In this document: in pieces, positions 63,169 to 64,000 of the stretch
Layout: each line of letters begins with the position of its first letter
Position numbering within the stretch: the stretch's first letter is position 1
Origin: Paenibacillus swuensis
Lineage (GTDB): Bacteria > Bacillota > Bacilli > Paenibacillales > DY6
NCBI RefSeq assembly: GCF_001644605.1
Contig: NZ_CP011388.1
Span: forward strand, 1,016,501 to 1,080,500
Reading direction: 5' to 3'
DNA length: 64,000 bases
Position numbers and translations under genes: made by a program
Notes under the pieces: generated by a model
The model's database searches: none
What the model saw: the letters and a program-made list of their open reading frames with translations, nothing else
What the model was told of the DNA's origin: nothing

Positions 63169-63182
63169 AATACGGCTGTAAA

Positions 63183-63231
63183 CACAACAAAGATGCGGTT
63201 CCATCCGATGAGGAACCGCATCTTTGTTGTG
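63183..63231. terminator. Strong bidirectional terminator between the AEC and agr genes
   Basis: A perfect 20-bp inverted repeat (63183-63202 and 63212-63231) with a 9-nt loop, placed between convergent genes 15 and 10 bp from their stops. Confidence 0.88.
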
Positions 63232-63240
63232 CCTGTGAAA

Positions 63241-63366
63241 CTAGTCTTTCTTCTTCATACTAGCTGGCGTGTCTATCTTACCAATCCCGACTTTAAACGT
63301 AAGACTGAACAAGGACGCCATGCCTGCCAAGATAGACATCGTGCGAATTACAATAGCTTTCTTCAT
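63241..63366 (-). CDS. AgrD-like autoinducer precursor, internal start within the agrB frame
   Basis: A 41-residue peptide starting at the ATG at 63366, with an excellent ribosome site GGGGAGG 9 nt upstream, inside the agrB frame. It begins with MKKAIVIRTMSILAGMASLF, an amphipathic or hydrophobic leader as in AgrD, then FSLTFKVGIGKIDTPASMK and a charged tail. The position right after AgrB and the leader/middle/charged-tail plan fit AgrD. There is no Cys to form the usual thiolactone; S18, S21 or T23 could form a lactone instead. It may be made alone, as a fusion to AgrB, or both. Confidence 0.6.
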   Translation of the reverse strand: MKKAIVIRTMSILAGMASLFSLTFKVGIGKIDTPASMKKKD

Positions 63367-63897
63367 GCGAATAAACCTCCCCCAATGCATAATGGTCAAA
63401 GCCTGAGATATAAATGCAAGAGTGAAAACCTCTTGTTGAAACCAGAGAAAGTTGGATGCCACAATCATGCAGGAAGTATATTTATAGATGTGCCGAAGCT
63501 TGGGGGTTATGAGATTCTGTTCGGTGCTCCGGGGGGCATATCGCAATATGAGCAGGAGAGAAACCAAGTCCAGATAACGTATGTAGGGGATATGAAGCAG
63601 CAGGACCAGCGGTAATGTAACAAATAACAGGCAAGAAATCAGCAGGCACGCTTCCAAGGAGGAAGCGTGAAAGCCGCCGCTGAATAAGCGCAGCAGGCAA
63701 AAACCGAACATGAACAGCAGGGCTTGTCCCGGATGGCCAAGGAAGAAACCAAGCATAACCGTGCCCGCCAACATTAAGATGAAGTGAATCAGAATGCTGA
63801 TACTGTAAGCCAGCTGATCCTGCGGAACGCTTGGCGTCTCTTTCTCTTCCAAGCTTACCAGATAAGCGGCCGCGCGGTTACTCCAGCCCGTGATCAT
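63241..63897 (-). CDS. AgrB-type pheromone-processing protease, fused in frame to an AgrD-like segment
   Basis: A 218-residue membrane protein. Residues 1-177 are AgrB, which cleaves and exports the cyclic autoinducer peptide: several membrane helices, and GFCLLRLFSGGFHASSLEAC with catalytic H77 and C84, the same numbers as in S. aureus AgrB. The family end is FISQALTIMHWG. No stop follows; the frame goes on into a 41-residue AgrD-like segment to the stop at 63241. The ATG at 63897 has AGAAAGGA upstream and overlaps the stop of the preceding membrane-protein gene (ATGA). The AgrC/AgrA receptor genes, if present, lie outside the window. Confidence 0.85.
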   Translation of the reverse strand: MITGWSNRAAAYLVSLEEKETPSVPQDQLAYSISILIHFILMLAGTVMLGFFLGHPGQALLFMFGFCLLRLFSGGFHASSLEACLLISCLLFVTLPLVLLLHIPYIRYLDLVSLLLILRYAPRSTEQNLITPKLRHIYKYTSCMIVASNFLWFQQEVFTLAFISQALTIMHWGRFIRMKKAIVIRTMSILAGMASLFSLTFKVGIGKIDTPASMKKKD

Positions 63898-64000
63898 ATA
63901 TCGAATTCCTTTCTGTAGGTCAAGTGAACCAAAGCCGCTAGGGTTAGTGTTAATGACGGCAGAATGAAGTATAAATACATCGATGAATTCAACAGCCAAT
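63894..64000 (-). CDS. 3' end of a membrane-protein gene upstream of agrB (truncated by the window edge)
   Basis: A minus-strand frame open from the window edge to TGA at 63896-63894 gives about 35 residues: LYFILPSLTLTLAALVHL and the end TYRKEFDI. It looks like a final membrane helix with a short cytoplasmic tail. Its stop overlaps the agrB start by 4 nt, so the two are translationally coupled. Identity unknown. Confidence 0.6.
   Translation of the reverse strand, partial: WLLNSSMYLYFILPSLTLTLAALVHLTYRKEFDI

Follow-up and report, generated by a model that had tools for sequence, protein, structure and literature searches.

The agr signals known so far are thiolactones or, in rare cases, lactones, and are prone to hydrolysis or rearrangement. 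Classical agr systems pair AgrB (PF04647) with the precursor peptide AgrD (TIGR04223). In S. aureus AgrD, L41 of the C-terminal PxEL recognition motif is essential, and in Staphylococcus intermedius AgrD a serine replaces the cysteine and the product is a lactone (PMC10482373). S. aureus AgrD-I is cut between M32 and D33 (PMC10196373), which lie at positions -6 and -5 when peptides are numbered from the conserved proline of the recognition motif (position 0); on this scale, with offsets counted by hand, Cys28 of S. aureus AgrD-I is -10. In the LytTR Regulatory Systems HdrRM and BrsRM, a LytTR regulator is encoded with a membrane inhibitor (PMC6193735).

The locus considered here lies at one end of a 64,000-nucleotide stretch of the Paenibacillus swuensis genome (NZ_CP011388.1, positions 1,016,501 to 1,080,500), referred to below as the window. 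Like classical agr, it has adjacent AgrB and AgrD segments and the AgrB catalytic residues, and its AgrD segment shares with classical AgrD a length of about 40 residues, a hydrophobic leader, and the conserved proline of the C-terminal recognition motif. Unlike classical agr, it has lysine at -9 rather than Cys/Ser at -10, its two genes are fused, PASM stands for PxEL, and neither an AgrC kinase nor AgrA adjoins it. As in S. intermedius AgrD, the cysteine is exchanged for another residue while AgrB is retained; the window lysine, however, is one residue nearer the cleavage site than the S. intermedius serine and would give an amide instead of a lactone. Ser- and Cys-type agrBD loci of the Paenibacillales (e.g., L027 and L063) have the same layout of membrane protein gene, agrB, and agrD, but their peptides carry Ser/Cys at -10 and match TIGR04223, and their AgrBs fall on the other side of the AgrB tree. 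Relatives of the window locus resemble LytTR Regulatory Systems (PMC6193735) in that a single-domain LytTR protein is encoded in an operon-like cluster with a membrane protein that lacks a kinase; they differ from HdrRM and BrsRM in the addition of AgrB and AgrD and in gene order, with the LytTR gene downstream, and the window locus has no LytTR gene.

The fused reading frame

A 218-codon open reading frame on the minus strand extends from an ATG at 63897 to a TAG at 63243-63241 with no internal stop. Residues 1-177 (63367-63897) are AgrB, as judged from the PF04647 match and conserved residues. Residues 178-218 (63241-63366; 41 amino acids plus the TAG), in the same frame, are a Lys-type AgrD assigned from the sequence, peptide alignment, and a profile search; this tail reads MKKAIVIRTMSILAGMASLFSLTFKVGIGKIDTPASMKKKD and contains no cysteine. 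The agrD segment retains its own ATG (63366-63364) and a ribosome site, GGGGGAGG (63383-63376), 9 nt upstream. Together these form the junction GGGGGAGGTTTATTCGCATG (63364-63383, minus strand), and the fused junction as assembled reads GGGGGAGGTTT. The separate ribosome site and start codon of agrD mean that a free AgrD peptide could be produced as well as the fusion. The first-pass annotation had described exactly these features: AgrB with H77 and C84 (both found in residues 1-177), no stop before an AgrD-like segment, a separate ATG and ribosome site for that segment, and the absence of cysteine from it. Its description of the agrB start needs correction, as the open frame extends beyond the ATG at 63897 in the upstream direction; that ATG, which overlaps the stop codon of the preceding gene (ATGA) and follows a plausible ribosome site, is nevertheless the likely start.

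The AgrB portion matches PF04647 over residues 10-151 (72.6 bits, cut-off 23; E 3.4e-20); a sequence search of the PDB with AgrB gave no match. R70, G75, H77, C84, P122, and Q165 (window numbering) are invariant or nearly so among the AgrBs compared (91/91), and the first four, all present in the window protein, have equivalents that are needed for the peptidase activity of S. aureus AgrB (PMC10196373). On the AgrB tree, Lys-type and Ser/Cys-type loci are separated by one change, and many inner branches are weak. The AgrB positions that differ most between the two types are 123-127 and 134, a loop that may correspond to K129-131 of S. aureus AgrB. Mutation of K129-131 is reported to leave cleavage in place but to abolish AIP formation (PMC10196373). 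The differences between the types may reflect mere kinship, since the split is a single phylogenetic contrast.

Identity of the tail

Against a profile of the peptides of 19 relatives, from which the window was left out, the tail scores 18.3 bits, and none of its 2000 shuffled versions exceeds 10.1 bits. The tail is the sole match to this profile among the 1826 open reading frames of the window (E 0.008). An alignment with the AgrBs and AgrDs of 14 relatives is gap-free across the AgrD part, and the counterpart of the tail in relatives is a separate agrD gene. With a score above that of every shuffle and a gap-free alignment, the AgrD-like character of the tail is well founded, and the frame is very probably a fusion of AgrB with a homologue of Lys-type AgrD.

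The first-pass annotation had also considered that the tail might be simply the last AgrB helix while a separate Cys-containing AgrD gene lay elsewhere. The helix is ruled out: the AgrBs of relatives stop just upstream of the point that corresponds to the agrD ATG, and the corresponding segment is carried as a separate, homologous agrD. The other part stands, in that the genome has a second locus with a Ser/Cys-containing AgrD (described below).

The tail has the features that define a Lys-type AgrD, namely lysine at -9 (residue 202 of the fused frame), proline at 0 (residue 211), no Cys/Ser at -10, and the gene context of agrB and a membrane protein gene. Position -10 is phenylalanine, so that the Cys/Ser ring nucleophile of TIGR04223-type peptides is missing, and the tail has no match at the cut-off of TIGR04223, the model for classical AgrD with a cyclic (thio)lactone product. 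In its PASM motif the proline of PxEL is kept, whereas E(+2) is replaced by serine and L(+3) by methionine. By analogy with S. aureus, cleavage is predicted between Ile205 and Gly206. In an AlphaFold2 model, the fusion has a mean pLDDT of 80.8, with values of 63-71 within the tail, and shows an AgrD helix at 180-204 and a loop at 205-211; the tail is too uncertain for the lysine to be placed relative to C84. A fold search of the PDB with this model returned nothing significant.

Lys-type AgrD peptides in the Paenibacillales

Within the same order, the peptides of 90 agrB loci that have a recognizable agrD were aligned on the conserved proline. Lysine at -9 without Ser/Cys at -10 occurs in 57/90, including the window tail, and Ser/Cys at -10 without Lys(-9) in 27/90 (21 serine, six cysteine); two peptides have both and four have neither. 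Lys(-9) is thus present in 57 of the 61 peptides that lack Ser/Cys(-10) and in two of the 29 that have it (Fisher p 1.6e-16), although neither the p value nor the proportions are population estimates because the loci are related and were selected by likeness to the window AgrB. Among 20 divergent Lys-type peptides, Lys(-9) and Pro(0) are the sole invariant columns, and Lys(-9) is the sole conserved residue of the pheromone part; lysine at other positions from -14 to -6 is rare (6/472). The absence of cysteine is a family trait by this sequence comparison, not a local oddity of the window.

A profile alignment (hhalign) of Lys-type and Ser/Cys-type AgrDs gives a probability of 97.8, indicating homology, and places the lysine in the nucleophile column, followed by a one-residue gap. 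TIGR04223 matches all 11 Ser/Cys-type peptides but only five of the 20 Lys-type peptides, and these weakly (best E 0.002); since most score too low for this standard model, Lys-type peptides may escape annotation. Named carriers are mostly Paenibacillus species, and a search using the Lys-type profile found such peptides in other families of the class as well (L118, L119, L122, L123, L124, L126, L128, and L131). The open literature searched, of which coverage was incomplete, has no description of a Lys-type AgrD or a natural lactam autoinducer, and the peptides apparently constitute a widespread, undescribed group.

Three agrD peptides outside both types (L086, L004, and L094) have serine at -9 rather than -10; with an unchanged cut site, their rings would be smaller. 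The position of the ring residue is therefore not rigid.

Ring chemistry and the linear alternative

The first-pass annotation had proposed that a Cys-free AgrD would yield a Ser/Thr lactone or a product of new chemistry. As a general rule the lactone fails: Ser/Thr positions are not conserved, Lys(-9) is the only residue kept in the pheromone part, and seven of the 59 peptides with Lys(-9) have no Ser, Thr, or Cys at all from -14 to -6.

The known agr thiolactone ring is 16-membered (PMC4979651), in keeping with the 16 ring atoms counted for closure from Cys(-10) to -6. Closure from Lys(-9) to -6 also gives 16 atoms by hand count, seven from the lysine and nine from three residues, and on account of this match in ring size AgrB may make a lactam. 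From the homology of the peptides, the one-change tree, the kept catalytic residues, and the ring size, the simplest mechanism would be attack of the lysine on a C84 acyl-enzyme. As in S. aureus, C84 of AgrB would cleave after residue -6 (Ile205) to form the acyl-enzyme. The side-chain amine of Lys(-9) would then attack, in the role otherwise played by the thiol of Cys or the hydroxyl of Ser, closing a 16-membered Lys-Val-Gly-Ile lactam, and N-terminal trimming and release would follow. The membrane protein encoded upstream of agrB, which has no kinase, would serve as the receptor and act on a LytTR regulator, whose gene in this genome is not beside the agrBD locus. The fusion would be unnecessary for this mechanism.

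The assignment of the lysine as the ring-closing residue is tentative, being judged from its position. A protonated lysine is a poor nucleophile, and its role could instead be in receptor binding or in processing of a linear peptide. A linear product is nearly as likely as the lactam: AgrB might cut Lys-type AgrD without cyclizing it, and the lysine might serve in binding to the receptor, in placement at the membrane, or in a second cleavage. This possibility, held with about the same reserve as the ring-closing role, accords with the lack of a nucleophile at the classical position, with the great variation of the sequence around the lysine, and with the fact that, while the lysine is the sole conserved residue, its reactivity is purely deduced. 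The evidence to the contrary is indirect. A mere peptidase would not require the entire conserved AgrB frame unchanged, and the lysine occupies the nucleophile column of the profile alignment at a spacing that preserves the 16-atom ring. A still broader proposal, that Paenibacillales and a few other Bacilli have a class of AgrBs making Lys-closed macrolactam autoinducers perceived by way of a LytTR regulator and a membrane protein that lacks a kinase, with enzyme and precursor fused in two lineages, is put forward with slightly greater caution than the ring closure itself. Either product would be informative, as these AgrDs lack Cys/Ser and their AgrBs retain the catalytic site. An amide ring, if real, would make the signal stable and give AgrB a new use; if the peptides are not cyclized, agr-type units would also produce linear signals.

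Origin and meaning of the fusion

In most relatives, agrB and agrD have a stop/start overlap in another frame. The first-pass annotation had supposed that the two genes are otherwise always separate or in different frames, yet in 11/90 loci agrD follows an agrB stop in the same frame. A search for the same read-through in relatives, which it had suggested, gave a second fusion, L016, but the arrangement is rare (2/90). Among the matches listed, all with open frames of at least 225 codons were retrieved, and the window and L016 alone are fused. The two are not nearest neighbors on the AgrB tree. L098, the one clear relative of the same genus as L016 that was checked, lacks the fusion, and the collection contains no genome of the same genus or family as the window by which its own fusion could be dated.

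Removal of one G (from GGGGG) or one T (from TTT) at the window junction produces an agrB TGA overlapping the agrD ATG (ATGA), the arrangement of most relatives. A one-base change at an overlapping agrB/agrD junction is the most likely origin of the fusion. Alternatively, an in-frame stop within the ribosome site, AGG AGG TGA, may have become GGG AGG TTT. In the junctions of L031, L023, and L034, agrB seems to terminate (Arg-Arg-stop) on a TGA that closes the agrD ribosome site, so that this site may be what puts agrD in frame.

The window fusion may be a recent mutation. An assembly error is the less likely source, as the genome assembled into a single contig and frameshift debris is absent from the window. 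That the read-through is unreal, with an extra base assembled at GGGGG or TTT masking the usual overlap, is improbable. Deletion of the G or T would give agrB the ending ...MHWGGLFA* or ...MHWGRLFA*, restoring the commonest arrangement, and K-type relatives have similar junction endings (WKGGE.. compared with WGGLF); the coincidence is weak, since any one-base deletion at the junction yields a stop. The genome is also 99.97% complete, long intact reading frames cover 92% of the window, and L016 is a second instance. A somewhat better prospect, though still an unlikely one, is that the locus is decaying and makes no signal, the fusion, the loss of PxEL, and the absence of LytTR being steps of loss. 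Both E(+2) and L(+3) are replaced, position -4, which is E34 in S. aureus, is lysine, the locus contains no LytTR gene, and the window AgrB has one of the longest branches of the tree and unusual residues at several near-invariant positions (14, 38, and 155). Decay sits poorly, however, with the retention of the catalytic residues, the agrD ribosome site, Lys(-9), Pro(0), the operon overlap, and an intact membrane protein, and L016, which is likewise fused and without E(+2), has a LytTR neighbor.

The opposite reading, that the fusion is a working adaptation in which the tether replaces PxEL binding and supplies one signal per enzyme, with free AgrD made from the internal start, is the least probable of these. 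It draws on two fusions that are not neighbors on the tree, both without the E(+2) that 55/59 peptides with Lys(-9) keep, a loss that could reflect a recognition need relaxed by tethering. It also fits S. aureus models, in which the AgrB termini and AgrD processing are cytosolic (PMC10196373). Two cases are few, though, the L016 fusion is missing from L098, and the unfused L052 and L053 also lack E(+2). Given the same rarity and possible recency, the earlier suggestion that the fusion fixes the ratio of enzyme to substrate is not supported. Taken as a whole, the locus is best explained as an agr-type signal unit whose agrB, without a stop codon, runs into a Lys-type agrD, an account with roughly even chances of being right in full. 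Even if it proves recent, the fusion supplies structural studies with an enzyme and its substrate in one naturally occurring chain. It is rare, and the group of Lys-type AgrDs is the more interesting point.

Neighborhood of the locus

Upstream of agrB is a gene for a 222-amino acid membrane protein, whose 3' end lies at 63894-64000 on the minus strand and whose stop overlaps the agrB ATG (ATGA); its start is outside the window (L003 3894-4562). The protein has no Pfam match and no PDB sequence match. By a home-made profile, a gene for a membrane protein of about 220 amino acids lies upstream of agrB in 90/90 loci with an identified agrD, and its product is a candidate receptor. Beyond it is a divergent RND-type transporter open reading frame. 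The first-pass annotation had looked to the region past position 64000 for agrC and agrA, but these two genes are the neighbors found there; neither agrC nor agrA was found beside the agrBD locus, which is not a classical agrBDCA operon. On the 3' side is a convergent permease-like gene. A long hairpin with a near-perfect stem (63180-63234; RNA fold -39.4 kcal/mol, z -10.1) separates it from agrBD and probably acts as a two-way terminator for both convergent genes.

A LytTR gene is nearby in 71/90 related loci (home-made profile) but not at the window locus, which has the membrane protein of a LytTR Regulatory System without the adjoining LytTR gene. PF04397 matches in the same genome include an orphan single-domain LytTR gene far from agrBD (G000:C1:5009669-5009938; L101), which is therefore a possible partner in trans.

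Elsewhere in the genome is a second AgrB, with a separate Ser/Cys-containing AgrD gene joined by an ATGA overlap. This second agr locus is followed by a gene (L004 5190-7004; G000:C1:4624189-4626003) for a 604-amino acid protein that combines LytTR, GGDEF, and EAL domains and might couple a peptide signal to cyclic-di-GMP; the start in L094 is similar. Shortly upstream of the second locus is a gene for a LytTR protein with a helix-turn-helix-like N-terminus (L106/L102; G000:C1:4620832-4621080).
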